Source: Candidatus Zixiibacteriota bacterium
Lineage (GTDB): Bacteria; Zixibacteria; MSB-5A5; GN15; FEB-12
Direction of reading: 5' to 3'
NCBI GenBank assembly: GCA_020344395.1
Contig: CP070824.1
Coordinates: forward strand, 1,288,679 to 1,323,770
DNA length: 35,092 bases
Shown here: piece by piece, positions 6,484 to 34,828 of the stretch
Position numbering within the stretch: position 1 is the stretch's first letter
How the letters are laid out: the number at the start of each line of letters is the position of its first letter
Notes under the pieces: generated by a model
What the model saw: the letters and a program-made list of their open reading frames with translations, nothing else
Database searches by the model: none
Told to the model about the DNA's origin: nothing
Made by a program: the position numbers and the translations under genes

Positions 6484-8351
6484 GCCGGCGAATCCCTGAA
6501 TCGTTTCAGATGCACAGCCAGCACTGCCAGATCGCCGGGCGTGACACCTTCGATCCGACTGGCCTGTCCCAGTGATGATGGTGTAAAGCGCAGCAGTTTC
6601 TCTCTCGCCTCGTTTTTCAGTCCATTCATGTTTTGCCAGTCAAAACCATCGGGGATAACCTCCGACTCCTGTCGTTTGAATTTCTCTATCTCCCTCTGTT
6701 GCTTGGCAATATACCCTTCGTAACGGATCTGAATAGCAGCTCGCCGGAGAGCATCCGATGCCGGGCGCCGGGGCTTTCCACCCTTTTTCATGATCAGGAG
6801 AAGCTCCTCAAGCCCAACTCCCGGCTGTTTGAGCAGATGACTCAACGAGACACTTGTCTGTTTCTTGAATCTTGATTCGAATGGACCCAGCTCAGCCACT
6901 CTGACAGTGGTGTTTCGGAGAAACCGAACCTCCTGCTCGGTCTGCGCGCACAGCTTCTCGAAAGCTACTGCCTCCTGATCATCAATCAGCCCGTACTGCC
7001 GCGCATATCGAGTCAACCTATCCAGGGCATTGTCTTCTCGCAGGGCCAGACGGTACTCGGCCCGCGAGGTAAACATCCGGTAAGGTTCTGTAGTAGAACG
7101 CGTTACGAGATCGTCAATCATAACGCCCAGATATGCCTCGGAGCGGTCCAAAACCAGCGGCTCAGCATCATTAATATGGTTCACCGCGTTGATCCCGGCC
7201 ATTATCCCCTGGGCTCCTGCCTCCTCATATCCGGATGTGCCATTAATCTGGCCAGCAAAGAAGAGCCCTGCAACCCGCCTTGTCTCAAGGGAGGGTCGCA
7301 CCTGGTATGCCGGGCAATAGTCATACTCTACGGCATAGCCCGGCCTGGTGATAACGGCATTTTCAAGTCCGATTACGGTCCTAATGGCCTGGCGCTGAAT
7401 GGACTCAGGCAGGGCGGTGGAAAAGCCGTTTGGATAGATCTCCGATGTTCCCATACCCTCGGGCTCCAGAAAAATCAGATGCCTGTCCTTTTCTGCGAAC
7501 CGATAGAACTTGTCCTCGATTGAAGGGCAATACCTTGGGCCGGTTGACTTTATCTGACCGGAAAAAATCGGGGACTCGGCCAAGTTGGCTGTCACAAGCC
7601 GCTTGGTATCATCTGTCGTATAGGTCATATGACAGACGACTTGTCTGAGCTCGCGTGGAGAGGAACGATACGAAAACCAGGGTGGAGGCTCCTCGCCCGG
7701 CTGAGGCTCGCATCTGGACCAGTCGATGGTGTCGCCATCAAGCCTGGGCGGGGTTCCGGTCTTCAGCCTGCCCACCTCAAAGCCGAGATTACGCAGCGAG
7801 TTAGAGAGTTTGCAGGCTGCCGGCTCACCCAGCCGACCTGCCGGCGTCTGTTCAGGGCCGATATGAATCAAGCCACCTAAGAAAGTGCCAGTTGCCACTA
7901 TAACCGCTTTAGACAGAATAACCTCGCCGCTCTCAGTCCTGATACCGCGGACCTTTCCATGATCGACGAGTACCTCGCCCGCCACACCCTCTATTATCTG
8001 CAAGCCACGCTGTCGACGGCAGAAATCCACGACAGATTTTGTGTAGGCGAGGCGATCCGCCTGGGCTCGCGTCGACCACACGGCCGGGCCGCGAGAAAGA
8101 TTCAGCCGCCTGAACTGCACGCCGGTGGCGTCAATAGCCATTCCCATCAGACCCCCAAGAGCATCTATCTCCTTAACCAGTTGTGACTTGCCCGACCCGC
8201 CAATGGCGGGATTGCATGACATCAGAGCGAGCTTGTCCGGGTCCATCGTCACGATCGCCACCGTCGCACCCATCCTGGTCGCTGCCAGCGCCGCTTCGAC
8301 TCCTGCGTGCCCTCCGCCGATTACTACTACATCAAAATCTGTCGATACCAT
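6480..8351 (-). CDS. mnmG: tRNA uridine 5-carboxymethylaminomethyl modification enzyme MnmG (GidA)
   Basis: A 623-residue FAD protein of the usual length. The N-terminal dinucleotide fold shows VVVIGGGHAGVEAA (8-21), then 'SCNPAIGGSGKSQLVKEID', the family's diagnostic loop with a conserved Cys. 'FFAGQINGTSGYEEAGAQG' marks the FAD-contacting C-terminal half, and the C-terminal helical domain follows. MnmG works with MnmE to install cmnm5 or nm5 groups at U34 of certain tRNAs. The start is an ATG at 8351, and the stop overlaps the rsmG start by 4 nt. The upstream gap to mnmE is 127 bp and holds a parS-like palindrome. Confidence 0.97.
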   Translation of the reverse strand: MVSTDFDVVVIGGGHAGVEAALAATRMGATVAIVTMDPDKLALMSCNPAIGGSGKSQLVKEIDALGGLMGMAIDATGVQFRRLNLSRGPAVWSTRAQADRLAYTKSVVDFCRRQRGLQIIEGVAGEVLVDHGKVRGIRTESGEVILSKAVIVATGTFLGGLIHIGPEQTPAGRLGEPAACKLSNSLRNLGFEVGRLKTGTPPRLDGDTIDWSRCEPQPGEEPPPWFSYRSSPRELRQVVCHMTYTTDDTKRLVTANLAESPIFSGQIKSTGPRYCPSIEDKFYRFAEKDRHLIFLEPEGMGTSEIYPNGFSTALPESIQRQAIRTVIGLENAVITRPGYAVEYDYCPAYQVRPSLETRRVAGLFFAGQINGTSGYEEAGAQGIMAGINAVNHINDAEPLVLDRSEAYLGVMIDDLVTRSTTEPYRMFTSRAEYRLALREDNALDRLTRYARQYGLIDDQEAVAFEKLCAQTEQEVRFLRNTTVRVAELGPFESRFKKQTSVSLSHLLKQPGVGLEELLLIMKKGGKPRRPASDALRRAAIQIRYEGYIAKQQREIEKFKRQESEVIPDGFDWQNMNGLKNEAREKLLRFTPSSLGQASRIEGVTPGDLAVLAVHLKRFRDSPA

Positions 8352-8401
8352 TACTGATCATCCGGATGTACGCTTCACAAACGCTGAAGATAATGTACTG
8401 T

Positions 8402-8417
8402 GGTTTCACGTGAAACC
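8402..8417. promoter_or_regulatory. parS: Second parS-type site (two outer mismatches)
   Basis: GGTTTCACGTGAAACC is a perfect 16-bp palindrome with the 14-bp parS core GTTTCACGTGAAAC intact; only the outermost base of each arm differs from consensus. It lies in the mnmE-mnmG intergenic gap. ParB would probably still bind it, perhaps more weakly than the site at 6346. Confidence 0.85.
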
Positions 8418-8478
8418 TAATTCAAAGGTATAGGTCAGCCGTCAAGCCGGAGATTGCGCACCGGGCGGTTATACCACT

Positions 8479-9834
8479 CTATTTGCCTATACAGAATTTC
8501 GAGAATATCCGACCCAGCAGTTCTTCGGTGTAGATCCGGCCAGTGATCTCGTCCAAGGCTGACGTGGCCTGCCTGAGATCAAACACCACCAGTTCGGGTG
8601 ATTCACCTGCAACCAGGTTCTTTCGGGCCCGTCTCAGATCCCGGAGGGCCTGTCCAAGTTTCCCTTTGTGCCTGGCCGATGTTACTACCAACCCAGAGGT
8701 CATGTCAGGCATATGCGATTCTATGGCCTCAACCAGTTTAGTTTTCAGGCGAGTAATACCCCTTCCGGATTTACATGATGTAATGACGGTTGAAGAGCTT
8801 ACGGTCGAATCTATTTTCCGTACCAGATCTTTCTTTGTCTGCTGTATTAGGTCGATCTTGTTTAGTAGCAACAATATAGGTATTTTCGGCAGCTCTGTCA
8901 GGTCATGCCTCAGTAATGACGGCCACGTCTTTCTCGAAAGATCGACCATCCATATTATAAGGTTGGCTTCGGATATCATTTCCTCGGCTCGCGCCTGACC
9001 AGCCTTCTCAATACTCCCGCCAAGCTGGCGGAGTCCGGCGGTGTCTATCAGGTTTACCGGGAAGCCTGACAGTTCGATCCATTCAGACAGATAATCCCTG
9101 GTAGTCCCGGCTGTTCCGGTTACGATGGCCCGCTCCTGGCGCAAAAGCAGATTGAAAAGAGATGATTTGCCTGCATTGGGCCGGCCCCCGATTACCACCC
9201 GAAACCCCTCATTAATAATGCGCCCTCCGTCGTAACTCTGCTCCAGCCTGGCGATTTTTTGTTCGATGCTCGTGATTCTGGCCAGGCTGGCGGCGTTGTC
9301 CGATTCCCCGTCTTCCTCCAGGAAATCGATTCCGGCCTCGATGTCGGCGATCACGGTCACAAGATCATCCCTGATCGTTTCAATATGCTCCGAATATGCT
9401 CCGAAGAGGTGCTCCCTACCAGCTTTCAGCGACGCTTCGGTGCTGGCCGAGATTACCTGGGCCACCGCCTCGGCTCTGGTCAGATCGATTCGTCCATGCA
9501 GGAAGGCCAGCTTGGTGAATTCACCCGGCTCGGCAGGGCGGGCACCGGAGCCGACCAGTTCGCCGAGAATGCGTCGGACAATCTGCTGCCCGCCATGGCA
9601 GAAGATCTCGACCTGATCAAGGCCGGTATAGGAGTGCTTTTCCGGCATGTAGACAGCAAGCACTTCATCGAGCTGCTCCCCGTCGGCACCGGTGAAGACG
9701 CCGTATCTCATCAGAAAGGGACGGAACTTCTCGGAAGGTTTTGCGGGTTTAAAATGCAGCTTAAGGAGTTCCAGGCTTCGCTTGCCGGCCAGTCGGAGAG
9801 CCGCCACTCCGCCCTCACCCGGCGGCGTAATCAC
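8479..9834 (-). CDS. mnmE: tRNA modification GTPase MnmE (N-terminus affected by a homopolymer)
   Basis: The continuous frame from GTG at 9834 gives 451 residues. It has the tetrahydrofolate-binding N-domain (GRIDLTRAEAVAQ near 114-126), G1 GRPNAGKS at 217-224, G3 DTAG, G4 NKID, and the C-terminal catalytic CIGK. MnmE pairs with MnmG in U34 tRNA modification. The conserved N-terminal sequence SDTIAAVITPPGEGG is encoded in frame upstream of this GTG, but no ATG, GTG or TTG opens that frame before the stop that lies in it upstream. A good GTG at 9890, overlapping the yidC stop, is one frame off, separated by a run of ten A. One added A (or two fewer) would restore a complete protein, so the true gene probably spans 8479-9890. 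Confidence 0.93.
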   Translation of the reverse strand: MITPPGEGGVAALRLAGKRSLELLKLHFKPAKPSEKFRPFLMRYGVFTGADGEQLDEVLAVYMPEKHSYTGLDQVEIFCHGGQQIVRRILGELVGSGARPAEPGEFTKLAFLHGRIDLTRAEAVAQVISASTEASLKAGREHLFGAYSEHIETIRDDLVTVIADIEAGIDFLEEDGESDNAASLARITSIEQKIARLEQSYDGGRIINEGFRVVIGGRPNAGKSSLFNLLLRQERAIVTGTAGTTRDYLSEWIELSGFPVNLIDTAGLRQLGGSIEKAGQARAEEMISEANLIIWMVDLSRKTWPSLLRHDLTELPKIPILLLLNKIDLIQQTKKDLVRKIDSTVSSSTVITSCKSGRGITRLKTKLVEAIESHMPDMTSGLVVTSARHKGKLGQALRDLRRARKNLVAGESPELVVFDLRQATSALDEITGRIYTEELLGRIFSKFCIGK

Positions 9835-26488: not shown

Positions 26489-26517
26489 TTGCAATACTGG
26501 AGCTAGTTGACTATACT
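26489..26517 (+). promoter_or_regulatory. Putative promoter of the M43 protease gene
   Basis: TTGCAA (26489-26494), a 17-nt spacer, and TATACT (26512-26517), located 55 nt before the protease ATG. This is a good sigma-70-like match. Confidence 0.6.
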
Positions 26518-26572
26518 TAAAATAGGTCTGACCATACGGAGGGGGGATGGAAGCGCCTTTTCGGAGGATCGT

Positions 26573-28435
26573 ATGCTTCTGCCCGACACCGACAGGGGAC
26601 ACTTCAAGAGTACTGCGCCAGTTCTCATCTTATTTGCCGCTCTTCTATCAATATCCGGCTTCGCTGCCGATTCGACCGATGTCAATTCCCGCTATCCGGA
26701 CTGGTGCCGGACTCAGGAGATTTACGAGTCGTTTGAGTCAGGCTCAGGTACGCCCGTACCGGAAGAGGATTGCCCTACCCAGGGAGCCTGCGATGACCCT
26801 TTTATGCGTGACTCGTGGGCTGCGACGGACTCGTCATCGATAAGTTATGTCCGCATGGTCATTCATGTCGTGCGAACAAGTGACGGTAGCATGGCCGCCA
26901 GCACCGATGAGATGGTTCACGACTACATGGATACGGTCAACCAATTCTTCTGGCCGTCACTTATACAGTTTGACTATATCATAAACCATATCGATTCCAC
27001 GGAGCTGTATATAGTTGAGGATGTTGTTGAACTATACTATCTAAGGTACCACAATTCATTTCCTCCACGCCAGTACCTGAACGTATGGATTGTTAATGCC
27101 CCCACCATGTCCTACGCAGTGTCGACGGCACCATGGGGGCGATTGTTCTTTCACCCCGCCGGTGGTATTTACATAGAAGGGGGGTTCTGGCGTCGGGAAG
27201 GGGCTAGGGTTTTGACTCATGAGGCCGGACACTCATTGGGGCTTTTACACACCTTTGCCGGATCTTACACTTGTGGTCCATGCCACGAAGCACCTGGTGC
27301 GGCCAACCGCGATTCTGTCCCTGATTTTTGCTCTGACACGCCGGCAACCCCGCTTGAATCAGCTTGCCAGAACGCTCACGGCGCCGACAGTTGCACCGGT
27401 CTGGATTGGGGCTATACCATGCCTGAAAACATAATGGCCTATACCCCGCTTGAATGCTACGAGTCATTTACGCCGCAGCAAATGGCCAGGATGCGGTGCT
27501 GGCTACATGATTTCACGCGAGACTGGATAGATGTTGTCGACTTCTCTGTAAATCGAACATTCGGCTCTGCGCCATTCACCGTTACATTTGAAAGCATAGC
27601 GCGAAAGCCGGTCAGTCTGTGGACCTGGGACTTTGGCGACGGAACTTATTCCAACGAAGCCCAGCCCATTCACACCTATGAATCCGCAGGCGTCTTCACC
27701 GTTACGGCCACAGTTGAGACGCCTGAGGGGCCATTTGACACCACTTACACTGACCTAATTCGGGTTTTTGCGGACACCATTGCAGCAGCAAACCTGTCGA
27801 GTGAGCCGGGACAACGACCGAAGCTGGATCTTTATGTTCGAAACGATCTTCCGTTGAGCGAAGTAATTATACCGTTTTCCTATGACGGGCCACTGGCTTT
27901 GACGTTGGATTCAATTTCCAGGGCCGGCCTGCGGACCGAGTCTCTGGACCTGACCATTCTACATGCCAACACCTCCTCCCGCTGCCTTACGGTAAGGCTC
28001 AGATGTCTGGATACGACTGACTCGGCATGCCTGCAACCTGACACCGGCGCGTTGCTGTCTGCATACTTCTGTGTCCCTGCCTGGATCGACTCGGGCTGGA
28101 ACAGCATCAGAATCGCCGATTACCAGGACTACGCTCTCACGTTCGTTTCCCCCGATACGACTTATGTGCCGGCGGTAGTTGATGGCTCAATCAACGTCGA
28201 ATACGATTGCTGTCAGGGCTGGGTAGGCAATGTTGACGGAGACCCGCTGGAGCTTGTGGATATCGGCGATCTGACTCGGTTGATCGACTATCTTTTTGTA
28301 AGCTTTGAGCCGCTGGACTGTCCGAAAGAGGCTGACTGCAATCAAGACGGCAGCAGCACGATCGACATCGGGGATGTGACCCATTTGATAGAGTACCTCT
28401 TTCTTAAGTCGGCATCCCTTGCCTGGTGCAACTGA
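26573..28435 (+). CDS. Secreted M43 (pappalysin-type) metalloprotease with PKD and dockerin-like domains
   Basis: A 620-residue exported protein. The signal peptide ends near GFAADS (~33). The protease domain shows the extended zinc motif HEAGHSLGLLH at about 216-226 (H216, E217, H220, H226) and a Met-turn NIMAY near 286-290, with paired Cys typical of M43B. A PKD domain (~320-398) contains WTWDFGDGTYSNEAQPIHTY. After an Ig-like or cohesin-like region (~400-540), a tail of ~77 residues has two EF-hand-like repeats (NVDGD...VDIGDLTRLIDYLF and DCNQDG...IDIGDVTHLIEYLF), resembling a type I dockerin. The ATG at 26573 has GGAGG 5 nt upstream. The tail probably anchors or sorts the protein at the cell surface; its partner is unknown. 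Confidence 0.88.
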   Translation: MLLPDTDRGHFKSTAPVLILFAALLSISGFAADSTDVNSRYPDWCRTQEIYESFESGSGTPVPEEDCPTQGACDDPFMRDSWAATDSSSISYVRMVIHVVRTSDGSMAASTDEMVHDYMDTVNQFFWPSLIQFDYIINHIDSTELYIVEDVVELYYLRYHNSFPPRQYLNVWIVNAPTMSYAVSTAPWGRLFFHPAGGIYIEGGFWRREGARVLTHEAGHSLGLLHTFAGSYTCGPCHEAPGAANRDSVPDFCSDTPATPLESACQNAHGADSCTGLDWGYTMPENIMAYTPLECYESFTPQQMARMRCWLHDFTRDWIDVVDFSVNRTFGSAPFTVTFESIARKPVSLWTWDFGDGTYSNEAQPIHTYESAGVFTVTATVETPEGPFDTTYTDLIRVFADTIAAANLSSEPGQRPKLDLYVRNDLPLSEVIIPFSYDGPLALTLDSISRAGLRTESLDLTILHANTSSRCLTVRLRCLDTTDSACLQPDTGALLSAYFCVPAWIDSGWNSIRIADYQDYALTFVSPDTTYVPAVVDGSINVEYDCCQGWVGNVDGDPLELVDIGDLTRLIDYLFVSFEPLDCPKEADCNQDGSSTIDIGDVTHLIEYLFLKSASLAWCN

Positions 28436-28646: not shown

Positions 28647-31223
28647 ATGAGCGCAAACCATCCCAGACAGACTCTTTGGGCTTCAATTATGTTGACGGCA
28701 CTGACCGTGCTGTTGGCCGGTGCGGCGGCTGCCGAAGTGCCGCAAGTCATTAACTATCAAGGGAGATTGCTCGATGATTTGGGTTATCTGGTAGCCGACG
28801 GCGACTACCAGATAACCTTCAACATCTGGAATTATTATAGCGGTGGTGCGCTTCTGTGGTCATCCGGTGCCCAGATTGTGCCGGTCGAGGATGGGCTCTT
28901 CAGCTACGAACTAGGTTCGGCCGTGCCTCTGCCGCACGCCTTGTTCACCGATACCGTCCGCTGGCTGGGTATTTCGGTGAGCGGTGATCCGGAGATTGAA
29001 CCCCGCACCAGACTTATCACTGTTCCGTACGCCTACCAGGCGCTACGCGCCGACACGGCTGCGTATGCCGAATCGGGCGCGGGAGGCGGTGGGGATATTA
29101 CCGCCGTATATGCCGGTGATGGCCTCACCGGTGGCGGTGAGACGGGCGACGTGACGCTGGGTGTCGAGTTTGCCGGCAGTGGTGCTGCAACGACAGTCTC
29201 GCGCAGCGATCATGAGCATGACGCGGCTTATGTTAATGAGAGTCAGACGAATTCCGTGACCAGTACGATGATTACCGACGGAACAATAGAATTCGGTGAC
29301 ATCGCCCAGAACGGAGCGACTACTGATCAGGTTATGAAATGGAACGGCAGCGCCTGGGCCGCCGCCGATGATGAGACTGGTGGCGGCGATGGCATCATAG
29401 CCGACTCCATCGGGGATTCCCTGGCCAATTACTTCGATACGGCAAAGGTCGTTGACACGATCCAAGGCGTTCTTACCACAGGTGGCTATCTGACCGGCAA
29501 CCAGACAATCACTCTGTCGGGTGATGTGACCGGCTTCGGTGCCACCGCCATCGCGACGACGATTGCTGACGGAGCGGTCCAGGAATCCGACCTGGATATC
29601 ACCAACACCGGGTCCACCGGTCAGGTCCTTACGAAAGCGGCCGGAGACCAGTTCACCTGGGCTGACGACCAGACGGGGACCGGTGGGAGTTCCTTCTGGT
29701 CGGTCACCGACTCGGTGCTCTACACCAACGACTATTGGGGTATGGCCAGAGGCGGGGCCGGCAACATCTTGTACGGCGACAGCACTCACACCATGGTGAA
29801 CCTAGGTATTGCCTGCACCACAGGCACGAGCGGAGAGACGTATCACTCGATCACCATCGGTGGCGGTCGGGCAAACCTGGCCGCCGACAGGTACGCTACC
29901 GTCAGCGGAGGAGGATTTAACAAAGCCGAAGGAAGGTACAGCACTGTCGGTGGAGGCGTCAGCAACAAGGCCAGCGGTGACTGGAGCGTGGTGAGTGGTG
30001 GATCGAACAGCGAAGCCCAGGCAACCTACAGTTTCGTGGGCGGAGGCTTTTCCGATACGGCCAGCGGCTCAACAAGTGCGGTTGTGGGCGGATCCAGGAA
30101 CACCGCGGCAGGCATGTATAGTCTAGTCGGTGCCGGTCGAGAGAACAGTGCGACTGGTGCCTATAGTACAGTTGGCGCCGGGATTTATGATACTGCCCGC
30201 GGCCACTATGCTTCAGTGTTTTCAGGTTTCCACAACATTGCCGGCGATGAAGTGGACGATACGGCCACGTTCGTCGGTGGCGGCTACGAGAACGCTGCGC
30301 TGGGAAAATACTGCACTGTGTCGGGAGGCTACGGAGACACGGCTTACTATTGGTACAGTACCGTCTGCGGCGGTGAACGGAACATGGCCCATAGCTACCA
30401 CTCATCGGTAGGAGGCGGGGAAGGGAACCGAGCCATGGGGACCTGGTCTACCATTGCTGGCGGAGATCGGAACCACACCGGCATGTTTTACTCCGTGGTT
30501 GCTGGGGGAACAGAAAACAATGCTGACGCGAACGCAGCATCAATTCTGGGGGGTGTGAAGAATATGGCCGATGCCACCCAGAGCGTCATTCTTGGTGGCG
30601 AAAACGATACGATTGAGCCAACCGGTTCGTATTCAGTCGTCTACGGACGCAACGTTTACTGTGACCAGCCTTACCGCGTCATCTTCTTCCGTGGGGAGAC
30701 ACACGGTCGATTAGGACTGAACCGCGACGACAACGATGGCATCGACTATCCTGTACATGTTGGCGTTTCTTTAGGTGGCAACGGAGGCGGTGCTTACCTT
30801 TCGGCCGGTGGCGCCTGGACCAATGGTTCCAGCCGGGAGTTCAAAGAGAATTTCAAGCCGATGAACGGTCAGGATGTGCTGGGCCGCATAGACAGACTCC
30901 CGATGGGGGCCTGGGAGTACAAAGGCACAGGAGAGAGACATATCTGGCCGTGCGCGGAGGATTTCCATGAGCAGTTTGATGTCGGTACAATCACAAAGGA
31001 AGGCATCCGCGACGTGAAATACCTTGCGGCAGGAGATGTGGCCGGTGTAGCTTTAATCGGTGTGCAGGAGTTGTACCGCATGACACAGGCACTGGAAGCC
31101 AAGACTCAGGAGATCGACGAACTAAGAAGTGAGATTGCGCAACTGCGCGGTATGGTGGAATCGGCCCTGGCCTCACAGGGGAAAGCTACCCCCGGCAGCG
31201 GCCAACTCGCAAGCAGGCGTTAG
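28647..31223 (+). CDS. Secreted fibre-like protein 1: shared N-domain, YadA-head-like repeats, S74 chaperone tail
   Basis: 858 residues, ATG with AGGAG 8 nt upstream. A signal peptide (to ~29) is followed by an N-terminal domain (30-136; INYQGRL... PRTRLITVPYAYQALRAD) shared with two downstream proteins. Residues ~145-345 resemble tail-fibre shaft segments (GDGLTGGGETGDVTL, SRSDHEHDAAY). About 16 copies of a 15-residue repeat (GG-x-N-x-A-x-G-x-YS-x-V pattern) cover ~406-667 and suggest a left-handed beta-roll as in YadA or haemagglutinin heads. The tail (728-858) starts SSREFKENFKPM, matches the S74 intramolecular chaperone seen in phage fibres, and ends in a coiled coil. A trimeric surface fibre is the likely product; the ligand is unknown. 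Confidence 0.82.
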   Translation: MSANHPRQTLWASIMLTALTVLLAGAAAAEVPQVINYQGRLLDDLGYLVADGDYQITFNIWNYYSGGALLWSSGAQIVPVEDGLFSYELGSAVPLPHALFTDTVRWLGISVSGDPEIEPRTRLITVPYAYQALRADTAAYAESGAGGGGDITAVYAGDGLTGGGETGDVTLGVEFAGSGAATTVSRSDHEHDAAYVNESQTNSVTSTMITDGTIEFGDIAQNGATTDQVMKWNGSAWAAADDETGGGDGIIADSIGDSLANYFDTAKVVDTIQGVLTTGGYLTGNQTITLSGDVTGFGATAIATTIADGAVQESDLDITNTGSTGQVLTKAAGDQFTWADDQTGTGGSSFWSVTDSVLYTNDYWGMARGGAGNILYGDSTHTMVNLGIACTTGTSGETYHSITIGGGRANLAADRYATVSGGGFNKAEGRYSTVGGGVSNKASGDWSVVSGGSNSEAQATYSFVGGGFSDTASGSTSAVVGGSRNTAAGMYSLVGAGRENSATGAYSTVGAGIYDTARGHYASVFSGFHNIAGDEVDDTATFVGGGYENAALGKYCTVSGGYGDTAYYWYSTVCGGERNMAHSYHSSVGGGEGNRAMGTWSTIAGGDRNHTGMFYSVVAGGTENNADANAASILGGVKNMADATQSVILGGENDTIEPTGSYSVVYGRNVYCDQPYRVIFFRGETHGRLGLNRDDNDGIDYPVHVGVSLGGNGGGAYLSAGGAWTNGSSREFKENFKPMNGQDVLGRIDRLPMGAWEYKGTGERHIWPCAEDFHEQFDVGTITKEGIRDVKYLAAGDVAGVALIGVQELYRMTQALEAKTQEIDELRSEIAQLRGMVESALASQGKATPGSGQLASRR
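29862..30646 (+). repeat. Array of ~16 degenerate 45-bp (15-residue) repeats
   Basis: Within fibre gene 1, units such as GFNKAEGRYSTVGGG, VSNKASGDWSVVSGG and SRNTAAGMYSLVGAG follow one another at 15-residue steps with few interruptions (one longer unit, FHNIAGDEVDDTATFVGGG). The DNA is well diverged, so the array is old and selected at protein level. Confidence 0.85.
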
Positions 31224-31247
31224 TATGATCGCATATATAGGAGAGAG

Positions 31248-31547
31248 ATGATGCAGACTTATATCCTGATGACCAAGCTCTCGACCGAGACAGGCAGTCA
31301 GGTCAAGGAGCGCGCCCAGTTGGGCAAGGCCTGGATGAAACAGGTCAAGGAAAAATGCCCCGAGGTGAATTTTATCGCCCACTATGCCCTTCTGGGAGCT
31401 TTCGACTTCCTGAGTATTTATGAGGCTCCAAACGCCGATGTGGCTGCAAAAGTGTCTATGATCAGCCTGGCCAACGGCGCCTTCCAGGCTGAGAGCTGGA
31501 CCGCGATTGAGTACAAGCGGTTTATCGAATTGAGCGAAGAGTTGTAG
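31248..31547 (+). CDS. GYD domain protein
   Basis: A 99-residue protein matching the GYD family of small ferredoxin-fold proteins: 'TYILMTKLSTETG' at the start, 'YALLGAFDFLSIYEAPNAD' in the middle (the family's GxYD-like block), and a C-terminal strand/helix. Such proteins form dimeric alpha/beta barrels; function is not established. GGAGAG lies just upstream of a double ATG (31248 and 31251). It sits 24 nt after fibre gene 1 and so could be co-transcribed, though nothing ties it functionally to the fibres. Confidence 0.85.
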   Translation: MMQTYILMTKLSTETGSQVKERAQLGKAWMKQVKEKCPEVNFIAHYALLGAFDFLSIYEAPNADVAAKVSMISLANGAFQAESWTAIEYKRFIELSEEL

Positions 31548-31671
31548 GCCGAATAGCCGGCTCATAACAGGAAGCAGCATTAGTTGCAGCGGGAACCTCC
31601 TGAGTCTGCGGCAATACCTTACTCTTGTTGTCCTGTTTCGTATGGATTACGGACAAGGCCGTATAAGCTCC

Positions 31672-31699
31672 TTGGAAAACGCGTATAAAGGGCTATATT
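31672..31699 (+). promoter_or_regulatory. Putative promoter of fibre gene 2
   Basis: TTGGAA (31672-31677), a 16-nt spacer and TATATT (31694-31699), 72 nt before the ATG at 31772. No other feature was seen in the 224-bp gap. Confidence 0.5.
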
Positions 31700-31771
31700 G
31701 GGGCGAGATCACGCACACTCGCTGTTACTTCGCACATGAGAATTACACACATCAATTCAAGAGGTATTACC

Positions 31772-33757
31772 ATGCGCGGAATCCGACCCTGCCGTATTCC
31801 GGCCGCCCTGCTGGGTGCAGCCGCCATACTTATGTTCGTTGTGGCCCATGCGGCCGCACAGGACACACTTCTGATAAACTATCAGGGGTATCTGACTGAC
31901 ATTTCCGGCGATCCCGTTAACGGCAACGTCATAATGACCTTTTCCATCTACGACGCCGGAGGGGTGTCACAATGGACCGAGACCCACGGTTCCGTGGAGG
32001 TGGCCAGCGGCCTGTTCGGTGTAGTGCTCGGCTCGGAAAGCGCACTGCCGGCCACGGTGTTTGATGGCTCCCTGCGATACCTGGGGATTCAGGTCGGCAC
32101 AGATGTGGAGATGAGCCCCCGCACGCTGATGACTTCGGCGCCGGGAGCGGCTGTTGCCCGGCGGATGGCCGGTGACCTTCACACTGCGCCGGGGCTGCTG
32201 GTCTTAAAAGACGCCAGCGGAGACTCGTCGATTGTGTTAAGCGCCGACGCCGCAGCGAATGCCATGAAAATCACCTGGGGCAGTCCGCCGAATGACCAGT
32301 TTCCCGCCTTCGAGGTGGTATCCGATGCGGCAGCGGAGAAAGTTACAATGGGGCTCGCCGCACCGCCGGATGACATTACGCCGGGGATAGAGCTTGCCGT
32401 TGATGCCCTGACCAACACGGGGTCTTTCCGGATCGGTGCACCGCCGGATGACAGTCATCCCTCCTTCGAGGTGGTGTCCGATGCGGCCACTGAGAAGGTA
32501 ACAATGGGGCTGAGTTTTCCACCGGATCCTTACACGCCGGGTATAGAGCTTGCCGTTGACGCCCTGACCAACACAGGGTCTTTCCGGATCGCCTCACCGC
32601 CGGATGACACATATCCCTCCTTCGAGGTGGTATGCGATGCGGCGGCGGAGAAAGTCACAATGGGGCTAGGTGCTCCGCCGGATGACCAAACGCCGGGTAT
32701 AGAGCTTGCCGTTGATGCCCTGACAAACACGGGGTCTTTCCGGATCGCCTCACCGCCGGATGACAACTATCCCGCCATTCAGTTGAGTTCCGACGACACG
32801 GAAGCGCTGCTGGCAATGCAAGGGCTTGATGCGAACTCATTGATGGAGGTCGGCGTCAACAGCAGCGCCCACCTGATGATGATGGACAGGCCAGGCACTG
32901 TGGACAGCTCGATGCTAACGATGCGGGTAGATTCCGGACAGGGCTCTCGCATTGAGTTAGAATATGGTGAATCGGCGGCTCAGTGTACCGGCTCTATCAT
33001 TGCCGGGAGCCAGGACGGAGCGGTTCTCACGGCCATGTACTGTCTGGCCAGTGACGGTGCCGGTGTCAGTCAGCGCACTGCAAAATGGGATTCGTGGGCG
33101 AAACCCGACCAGAGTGCCGGATCTGACTACTGGATGCAGCTACCTGTGGAATCCGGTGAGTCATCCTTCTACTCAGGGCTGGCTGCCGGGCTGGGAAAGT
33201 CTGAAATGTCGTGTGTCGGTATTTCGCCACGTGGCGACAGCACCGCGGTGGTGGTCACAGTCAACGATACAATGGCCGAGGTGTCGCTTTTTGAGGGTAC
33301 TACTTCCGATCCACCTGATATCGTGCTGAGAACCACCAACGCCGACGACGGCCGGGTCGGAATCAACACCGACAGCCCGAGTGAAGCCTTGTACGTTGTA
33401 GGTAACATCGTGGCGACAGGCACCATCACAGAACTCTCTGACGGACGACTCAAGGAAAACGTCACTCCGGTGACAGATGCTTTAGATAAGATCAGCAAAC
33501 TTCGGGGAGTAAACTTCGAGTGGCACTCCGATGAGAGTGACGAGATGCGACTGCCCAAAGGCAGACAGATCGGTGTAATTGCACAGGAAGTAGAGAGGGT
33601 GCTTCCGGAAGTCGTCAACACGCCTGACGACGGTTACAAATCAGTTGACTATGGTAAGCTGACGGCTGTCTTAATCGAAGCCGTCAAGGAACAGCAGCAG
33701 ACAATAGATGAACTAAAAGCTCAGCTTGAAGAGTTGAGCGCCGAAGTAAGGAAATAA
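31772..33757 (+). CDS. Secreted fibre-like protein 2: shared N-domain, PPDD tandem repeats, S74 chaperone tail
   Basis: 661 residues; the ATG at 31772 has AGAGG about 7 nt upstream. The signal peptide ends near AHAAAQD (~29). The N-domain (30-135; LLINYQGYLTD... DVEMSPRTLMTSAP) is homologous to those of the two neighbouring fibre proteins. Residues ~153-345 hold tandem 26-residue units that each end in a PPDD..P motif, arranged as near-identical 52-residue pairs. After a beta-rich region, the C-terminal ~107 residues (LSDGRLKENVTPV... GVIAQEVERVLPEVV... VDYGKLTAVLIEAVKE) are a classic S74 peptidase/chaperone domain ending in a coiled coil. In phage fibres this domain trimerises the fibre and then cleaves itself off at a Ser. 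Confidence 0.85.
   Translation: MRGIRPCRIPAALLGAAAILMFVVAHAAAQDTLLINYQGYLTDISGDPVNGNVIMTFSIYDAGGVSQWTETHGSVEVASGLFGVVLGSESALPATVFDGSLRYLGIQVGTDVEMSPRTLMTSAPGAAVARRMAGDLHTAPGLLVLKDASGDSSIVLSADAAANAMKITWGSPPNDQFPAFEVVSDAAAEKVTMGLAAPPDDITPGIELAVDALTNTGSFRIGAPPDDSHPSFEVVSDAATEKVTMGLSFPPDPYTPGIELAVDALTNTGSFRIASPPDDTYPSFEVVCDAAAEKVTMGLGAPPDDQTPGIELAVDALTNTGSFRIASPPDDNYPAIQLSSDDTEALLAMQGLDANSLMEVGVNSSAHLMMMDRPGTVDSSMLTMRVDSGQGSRIELEYGESAAQCTGSIIAGSQDGAVLTAMYCLASDGAGVSQRTAKWDSWAKPDQSAGSDYWMQLPVESGESSFYSGLAAGLGKSEMSCVGISPRGDSTAVVVTVNDTMAEVSLFEGTTSDPPDIVLRTTNADDGRVGINTDSPSEALYVVGNIVATGTITELSDGRLKENVTPVTDALDKISKLRGVNFEWHSDESDEMRLPKGRQIGVIAQEVERVLPEVVNTPDDGYKSVDYGKLTAVLIEAVKEQQQTIDELKAQLEELSAEVRK
32309..32776 (+). 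repeat. Three tandem 156-bp repeats (2 x 26 residues each)
   Basis: The units start at 32309, 32465 and 32621, exactly 156 bp apart, and encode FEVVSDAA(A/T)EKVTMGL...TPG followed by IELAVDALTNTGSFRI...P. Large stretches are almost identical in DNA, including synonymous sites, which points to recent duplication or gene conversion. The second halves are the best conserved. Half-units flank the array on both sides. Confidence 0.95.
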
Positions 33758-33793
33758 GAAGACAACTTATTGGTTCAGGCAGGAGGAAGTTTC

Positions 33794-34828
33794 ATGCAGC
33801 GTGTTGGAATTCTCTTTGTTGCGCTCGCAGTTGTGTTGTTTGCATCAGCCGCCGTGGCCGACGTGCCACAGACAATCAACTACCAGGGGAGGCTGACCGA
33901 CCCGTCAGGCGATCCGGTGCCGGATGGTGAGTATGAATTGTCGTTCAGAATCTACAATGTTGCGGAGGGTGGTCTGCCGGTGTGGGGGCCGGAATCACCC
34001 AAACCGATAACGGTCACTGACGGGCTTTTCACCTGGCCGCTCGGATGGTTGCTGAGTTTCCCGGCCGGATTCTTTGACGACACCTCCCGCTGGCTGGGTA
34101 TCACGGTCGAGTCCGATCCGGAAATCGAACCACGGACGCAACTTAACTCGGTGCCGTACGCATACCATGCGCTCCGGGCGGATAACGTCGGCCCCTGGTC
34201 TACGGTCGACAGCAGCGTCTACCGCGCCAACGGGTGTGTCGGCATAGGCACGGCCACACCGCGGGCCATGCTCGATGTGGCCGGTCCCCTGCGCGTGCTG
34301 CGCAATGACGATTTCTCGTGGCCGAGTGACGGCGAGGGGATGGAGATATTCTATGACCCGGTGGAGAGGGTCGGTGTCATTGAGGTCTTCGACCGTCCGC
34401 TCGGGTACCGCAAAATGAACTTCCGGCACAGCTATGTCGGCTTTCACGTGGACAATCCTCAGTACCGCGTGGACGTAGCCGGTGATGTTCATGCCTCGAG
34501 TTTTCCGACATCATCGGATGTCAGGTTCAAGAAGAACATCAGGAAACTGGATAACGTGCTGGAGAAGCTGGACCAGATCCGGGGAGTTTCGTTTGATTGG
34601 AACGCAAAGTACGAAGAACTCGGCCGTTCAACGGGTCACCGCGAGATAGGCGTGATCGCTCAGGAGGTCGAGAAGGCTTTCCCGGAACTCGTGTCCACAT
34701 GGGCCGATGAGGATTACCGGGCGGTCGACTACGGCCGCATGACGGCCGTACTGATCGAGGCGATCAAAGAGTTGAAGGCGGAGAACGAGTCGCTGAAACA
34801 GCGGATCGAGAAGCTGGAAAAGCAATAG
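33794..34828 (+). CDS. Secreted fibre-like protein 3: shared N-domain, short middle, S74 chaperone tail
   Basis: 344 residues; the ATG at 33794 has AGGAGG upstream, 36 nt after fibre gene 2. A signal peptide (to ~22) is followed by the shared N-domain (23-130; INYQGRLTDPSGDPVPDGEY... EIEPRTQLNSVPYAYHALRAD), which is closest to that of fibre protein 1. A short segment (~140-235) includes NGCVGIGTATPRAMLDV, a motif typical of S74 proteins. The C-terminal ~106 residues (SSDVRFKKNIRKL... EIGVIAQEVEKAFPELV... VDYGRMTAVLIEAIKEL) form the S74 domain plus coiled coil and closely resemble protein 2. It is a minimal version of the architecture and may be the base or a short fibre. Confidence 0.86.
   Translation: MQRVGILFVALAVVLFASAAVADVPQTINYQGRLTDPSGDPVPDGEYELSFRIYNVAEGGLPVWGPESPKPITVTDGLFTWPLGWLLSFPAGFFDDTSRWLGITVESDPEIEPRTQLNSVPYAYHALRADNVGPWSTVDSSVYRANGCVGIGTATPRAMLDVAGPLRVLRNDDFSWPSDGEGMEIFYDPVERVGVIEVFDRPLGYRKMNFRHSYVGFHVDNPQYRVDVAGDVHASSFPTSSDVRFKKNIRKLDNVLEKLDQIRGVSFDWNAKYEELGRSTGHREIGVIAQEVEKAFPELVSTWADEDYRAVDYGRMTAVLIEAIKELKAENESLKQRIEKLEKQ

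Follow-up and report, generated by a model that had tools for sequence, protein, structure and literature searches.

Mosaic adhesive trimers (MATs) are the closest described relatives of the fiber proteins considered here and were reported from the predatory bacterium Bdellovibrio bacteriovorus. According to the main text of Caulton et al. 2024 (PMC10769870), MATs carry a conserved beta-rich domain of ~130 aa after the signal peptide, followed by a trimeric shaft and varied tips, and 13 of the 21 B. bacteriovorus MATs end in an S74 domain with an SDxxxK motif. The same text describes this motif as catalytic, with self-cleavage demonstrated at S782 of Bd3182, reports glycan binding for a Bdellovibrio homologue, and poses the surface partner of the N-domain as an open question. 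Here, we analyzed a 35,092-nucleotide stretch of Candidatus Zixiibacteriota bacterium DNA (assembly GCA_020344395.1, contig CP070824.1, positions 1,288,679 to 1,323,770 of the forward strand; hereafter, the window), in which three plus-strand genes, genes 1–3, lie between positions 28647 and 34828.

Genes 1–3 are likely S74-tipped members of a MAT-like surface-fiber family, with trimerization, self-cleavage, surface location, and adhesion proposed by analogy. They combine sequence-based signal peptides with N-domain and S74 homology, including conserved catalytic residues, and they belong to a set of many paralogues with swapped tips in a nonphage context. An earlier note, written from the DNA alone, had described these genes as cell-encoded, self-chaperoned fibers. 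Its observation is confirmed, and its interpretation is partly supported. Given the distant homology of the N-domain to that of Bdellovibrio MATs as described in the main text of PMC10769870, the note had rediscovered the MAT design without recognizing it.

Architecture of the three fiber genes

Each of the open reading frames (ORFs) listed at 28647–31223, 31736–33757, and 33770–34828 is present. Ribosome-binding sites point to starts at 28647 for gene 1, 31772 for gene 2 (after AAGAGGT), and 33794 for gene 3 (an ATG, after AGGAGG), so that the genes span 28647–31223, 31772–33757, and 33794–34828 and encode proteins of 858, 661, and 344 aa, respectively. The gap from gene 2 to the start of gene 3 is 36 nt, and these two genes therefore probably form one operon. 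Description of the genes as three consecutive ones was slightly wrong, as a plus-strand gene for a small GYD-domain protein outside the fiber family (31251–31547; PF08734, E = 8.5e-19) separates genes 1 and 2. The proposed shared architecture is indeed found in all three: a signal peptide (one hydrophobic stretch per protein, by sequence inspection), a homologous N-domain of ~110 aa, a variable middle, and a C-terminal S74 domain with a coiled coil. No lipobox-position cysteine, further transmembrane stretch, or known C-terminal sorting signal was found in the three proteins.

The N-domains, encoded on the plus strand at 28731–29060, 31856–32167, and 33857–34186, match one another with E-values of 1e-16 to 1e-36 (48% identity between genes 1 and 3, 43% between genes 2 and 3). 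A profile built from the clade detects those of genes 1 and 2 with E = 3e-41 and 9e-36, respectively. All three also match the Bdellovibrio MAT N-domain model NF053851 (Bdello_MAT_N, NCBIfam) with E-values of 6.8e-6, 2.6e-6, and 9.5e-9 and scores of 26.0, 27.3, and 35.2 bits, under its curated cutoff of 60 bits. This model matched 12 of the 13 family members tested (genes 1–3 and 9 of 10 others; E = 4e-4 to 6e-10), and none of the 61 genomes of the order contains a member above the cutoff. As judged from these profile matches, the N-domain is a distant homologue of the MAT N-domain. Because the sequence architecture agrees with that of MATs in each feature compared and the cutoff is not reached, we file the proteins as MAT superfamily homologues outside the Bdellovibrio subfamily. 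The N-domain of gene 3 is predicted with confidence to be all-beta (predicted local distance difference test (pLDDT) score about 90–98). A search of the PDB gave no significant match to the N-domain fold (best E = 0.02, beta-sandwich look-alikes only), and the main text of PMC10769870 likewise gives no PDB match for the Bdellovibrio domain.

The middles of the proteins differ. The shaft of gene 1 (29850–30630, plus strand) consists of ~16 repeats of 15 residues (xVxGGxxNxAxGxYS) and is modeled as a regular beta-solenoid (pLDDT about 80–94). That of gene 2 (32186–32880, plus strand) is built from 52-residue repeats with a 26-residue half-period and PPDD turns, with 57% self-identity at a lag of 52, and gene 3 has a short linker and almost no shaft.

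The S74 domains of genes 2 and 3 (33410–33751 and 34487–34825, plus strand) match PF13884 (Peptidase S74) at E = 6e-18 (65.2 bits) and 3e-19 (69.5 bits), well over the gathering cutoff of 22 bits, and the C-termini of the two proteins are 40% identical. The divergent S74/ICA domain of gene 1 (30801–31142, plus strand) is weaker, reaching 19.6 bits when the whole protein was scanned against Pfam and 24.3 bits, over the cutoff, in a separate S74 search; a profile built from its own clade detects it with E = 1e-24. The putative nucleophiles and their partner lysines are Ser728 (codon 30828–30830) and Lys733 in gene 1, Ser556 (codon 33437–33439) and Lys561 in gene 2, and Ser241 (codon 34514–34516) and Lys246 in gene 3, with a long helix after the domain in gene 1 and a helix running to the C-terminus in gene 3. 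The motif reads SDGRLK in gene 2 and SDVRFK in gene 3; the SSREFK of gene 1 (SSREFKEN) departs from SDxxxK at the second position only, which corrects an earlier reading of the gene 1 motif as SDxRxK. A Ser/Thr-x4-Lys dyad is intact in 64 of the 65 S74 domains of the clade, including those of genes 1–3. A separate S74 domain, in an ORF without an N-domain (L038:1300–1908, minus strand), has Cys at the nucleophile position (CDPCYKEN).

Genes 2 and 3 carry a capping-loop-like motif (in gene 2 as VGINTDSPSEAL, on the plus strand immediately upstream of the S74 domain at 33410–33751), as do 29 of 53 ORFs that combine an N-domain with S74, compared with 0.12 expected; the consensus, of the type VG..G/N...P...L, was interpreted as being one residue symbol short in print. 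By sequence, the S74 domain of gene 3 matches a phage long tail fiber (PDB 6f45, E = 3e-8) and the MyRF ICA (7dc3, E = 3e-7). A Foldseek comparison of the gene 1 model with the MyRF ICA gave a probability of 1.00, a target template-modeling (TM) score of about 0.47, and E = 0.14.

These features place genes 1–3 among several known systems. With Bdellovibrio MATs, they share the signal peptide, the conserved beta-rich N-domain, the variable shaft, S74 or other tips, the SDxxxK motif, many paralogues, and tip swapping, with a capping-loop-like motif in genes 2 and 3 but not in gene 1; they differ in that the N-domain is only distantly homologous, some of the S74 domains are of the SSREFKEN class, the tip repertoire is different, and there is no sign of a predatory host. 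With phage S74 fibers and endosialidases (the K1F endosialidase, the T5 L-shaped fiber, and the distal subunit of the long tail fiber, 6f45), they share the C-terminal intramolecular chaperone/protease, the Ser-x4-Lys dyad, and the coiled coil, but genes 1–3 are cell-encoded, have a Sec signal peptide, and carry a bacterial N-domain where the phage proteins have a virion-attachment domain. MyRF has the S74-type ICA fold but is a eukaryotic membrane-bound transcription factor.

Trimeric autotransporters such as YadA and EibD offer an analogous trimeric surface-fiber logic, and gene 1 resembles their short-period beta-roll head. They differ from genes 1–3 at the C-terminus, which here is S74 without a YadA anchor barrel; neither such a barrel nor any YadA-type family in Pfam or NCBIfam was found for genes 1–3. 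YadA-head-like repeats had been suggested for gene 1. The 15-residue beta-solenoid fits this idea, but we rejected a YadA head, since neither profile nor fold matches were significant (EibD probability 0.07). Profile searches of the individual segments recovered the S74 domain and, below its cutoff, the N-domain, but no YadA-type match.

Repertoire, tip exchange, and spread of the N-domain

The source genome (3.44 Mb, 85% complete, scaffolded with 100-N gaps) contains about 17 N-domain sites, several of them in tandem clusters, and 4 S74 domains. As S74 occurs on 4 of about 17 N-domain sites and is one tip among many, the N-domain rather than S74 defines the family. The 100-N gaps cut four N-domain genes and create false chimeric ORFs (L052:4979–5078, L053:5548–5647, L054:12335–12434, and L056:12933–13032); the window is free of such gaps.

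Across the order, the N-domain is found in 59 of 61 genomes, including all 37 good metagenome-assembled genomes (MAGs), and S74 in 39 of 61. A survey of relatives for pairing of the two bore out the proposed association: among the 62 S74 ORFs whose 5′ end lies inside its contig or locus, the N-domain is present in 58, and at least one of the other four starts at an assembly gap. The 151 complete N-domain proteins fall into 39 tip clusters. S74 is present in 57 of the 151, a share that is inflated because relatives were partly retrieved via S74.

The tips appear to have been exchanged repeatedly. On the N-domain tree, for which the sequences are short and many forks are unsettled, labeling the proteins as S74 or other requires 26 parsimony changes, compared with 44 when the labels are shuffled, and the starred branches force at least three. 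One such swap is seen within the source genome, where gene 2 and its own paralogue at G000:1410014–1411729 share the N-domain and the PPDD repeats and differ in the tip, S74 in gene 2 and a different one in the paralogue. The earlier view of cell-encoded, exported, S74-tipped fibers that join one kind of N-domain to interchangeable middles and tips is supported. Separately, the tandem N-domain genes near L055:5587–5690 and L055:9120–9222 share a near-identical in-frame upstream stretch, RDPSNGLYYGQISHPRYSADN..., which suggests a recent duplication that included the promoter region. In Omnitrophota, three N-domain proteins of 238 aa (L135:458–1171, L141:2063–2776, and L134:2325–3038) have a predicted C-terminal transmembrane helix that replaces the tip.

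A genome scan, in which most of the matching genomes are MAGs, detected the N-domain in Zixibacteria, Eisenbacteria, KSB1, Latescibacterota, Nitrospirota, Omnitrophota, Elusimicrobia, Deltaproteobacteria, Gammaproteobacteria, Saccharibacteria, and Uhrbacteria. MAT-like N-domains were also found in archaeal MAGs, where binning errors are possible, assigned to ANME-1/Methanophagales and Methanosarcinales (L105, L107–L109, L114, L118, L120, L124, and L125). On profile evidence, the presence of the N-domain in ANME-1 and other archaea is new. The MAT family itself is already known and is far more widely distributed than described: the fiber design of a predatory bacterium is present almost throughout an order of Zixibacteria. 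Occurrence of the N-domain across many phyla and in methane-oxidizing archaea indicates that MAT-type recognition is probably no speciality of predation.

No match to the N-domain was found among plasmids, and 50,697 phage genomes gave only chance-level hits (best E about 2). Nine IMG/VR contigs (L146–L154) do encode N-domain proteins without S74. In one of them (L154, IMGVR_UViG_3300042402_007908), the N-domain protein (7944–9236) has a signal peptide and is encoded between capsid and tape-measure genes, in surroundings that comprise terminase, portal, head protease, capsid, and tape measure. The other eight contigs, L146–L153, have phage head genes in common with L154, among them at minimum the major capsid protein, of which L146 shows only a 20-residue end piece. 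The earlier note had named occurrence of the same genes in phages of relatives as evidence against it; N-domain genes do lie in a phage morphogenesis operon, but they lack S74, and no known relative of the source bacterium is linked to these phages.

Proposed function and competing explanations

If genes 1–3 function as MATs and phage S74 proteins do, each chain would be exported via its Sec signal peptide, and three chains would trimerize, aided by the C-terminal S74/ICA chaperone and coiled coil. Self-cleavage by the chaperone before Ser728, Ser556, and Ser241 would then free pieces of about 131, 106, and 104 residues, respectively, and leave a beta-helical tip exposed for binding. The common base, kept at the cell surface, would be the N-domain, the middle would set length and presentation, and tip exchange between paralogues would generate a repertoire of binding specificities. 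As targets, glycans, particles, or neighboring cells seem to us a better guess than prey.

Several observations count against this proposal. The NF053851 matches, at 20–39 bits, stay under the cutoff of the model and mostly cover its first half only. The S74 domain of gene 1 is degenerate, with IWPCAEDF instead of the IGPMAQDF found in most relatives of its class, and this gene lacks the capping-loop motif. The stretch between the N-domain and S74 in gene 3 is predicted with low confidence. All structure predictions are of monomers, and the trimer, like the surface location and the binding, is carried over from the MATs of Bdellovibrio and the S74 proteins of phages.

The alternative that fares best, although we regard it as unlikely, keeps the same architecture and assigns the fibers a structural role in a sheath, a matrix, or a cell–cell spacer, with tip diversity reflecting assembly partners. 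The long regular solenoid of gene 1 would suit such a role, as would the dockerin repeats or type IX sorting domains often present on neighboring secreted proteins, which suggest a multiprotein surface assembly. The 39 tip clusters, some of which weakly resemble H-type lectin and phage fiber C-terminal domains, fit recognition better, and the Bdellovibrio homologue binds glycans according to the main text of PMC10769870. It is less probable still that S74 matures an excreted, depolymerase-like trimer, so that the products are secreted enzymes or free fibers that the cell does not retain. Phage S74 domains mature endosialidases and tailspikes, and a lipobox, transmembrane anchor, and known C-terminal sorting signal are all missing from genes 1–3, which favors this explanation; however, Pfam and NCBIfam detect no catalytic domain besides S74 in these genes, and an N-domain conserved almost throughout the order points to a shared role in retention.

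Although S74 domains match many phage tail-fiber families, and occur among the control genomes only in E. coli, which carries phage genes, and although N-domain proteins lie in a phage morphogenesis operon in IMG/VR contigs, we rejected an origin from a prophage remnant, tailocin, or extracellular contractile injection system as highly improbable: the proteins have signal peptides, the neighbors are housekeeping genes, the 3.44-Mb genome yielded neither a portal (PF04860) nor a contractile sheath (PF04984) gene and the window no phage structural gene, the N-domain has no significant match in the phage genomes searched, N-domain plus S74 proteins occur throughout the order, and the phage-borne N-domain proteins are distant and without S74. 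The same evidence upholds the earlier exclusion of a prophage remnant, and proteins annotated as tail fibers in such genomes are often cellular. We favor MAT-like, S74-tipped surface fibers as the assignment for genes 1–3.

A PamT-like neighbor and the genomic surroundings

Clustering of neighboring genes revealed one small secreted protein that recurs beside N-domain genes in both bacteria and archaea. Its 47-residue module (W-x-V ... GG ... T-V-G-Q ... G-Y-W) aligns with the N-terminal region of CPR_pilus_PamT (NF058579), with E-values down to 5.5e-7, below the 240-bit cutoff of that model. The resemblance to this candidate phyla radiation (CPR)-type pilus protein is confined to the N-terminal module; the C-termini differ and bear either dockerin repeats or a type IX sorting domain, the latter in some phyla. 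The partner gene lies near an N-domain gene in 44 of 80 named loci; all of these pairs are codirectional, and most of the partners are directly downstream (for example, L070:2597–3292, L084:5665–6324, L091:3877–4353, and L114:5940–6851, with about 40 other loci). A position-independent search of the order returned 108 copies, of which at least 70 have an N-domain gene no more than 4 kb away, in 68 cases on the same strand, compared with ~2 expected by our own estimate from N-domain density. We found neither a mention of such a neighbor in the main text of PMC10769870 nor anything relevant on PamT or Zixibacteria adhesins in the literature searched.

This recurrent association is new, and the PamT-like protein may be the MAT anchor; it is at any rate a concrete candidate for the surface partner of the N-domain. 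A broader possibility, which we put forward tentatively and consider rather doubtful, is that MAT-type fibers constitute a pan-prokaryotic two-gene system, in which the PamT-like protein docks the N-domain of the fiber to the cell surface; the pair is present in bacteria and in ANME-1 archaea. Anchoring, which N-domain proteins lack, would come from those partners that bear dockerin or type IX sorting domains. No conserved partner adjoins the three fiber genes of the window. The source genome has a single copy at 686 kb (G000:C1:686416–686556), about 21 kb from the nearest N-domain gene, and under the two-gene scheme this one unlinked copy would serve all fibers. In the phage contigs L146–L154, a small secreted IDSGGG protein always precedes the N-domain gene. 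Comparison of its profile with that of the PamT-like partner gave the correct register with an hhalign probability of 6.5%, which makes this ORF a lead only.

The rest of the window is chromosomal and of a housekeeping nature (mnmE, mnmG, rsmG, parAB, yidC, murJ, and similar genes). It also encodes an FtsX/MacB permease and an M43 metalloprotease in which PKD repeats are combined with dockerin-like ones. Dockerin-like C-terminal repeats flank fiber genes on both sides, in this PKD-containing M43 metalloprotease upstream (window 26507–28435) and in a peptidase-like protein on the minus strand downstream (L061:4250–6811).

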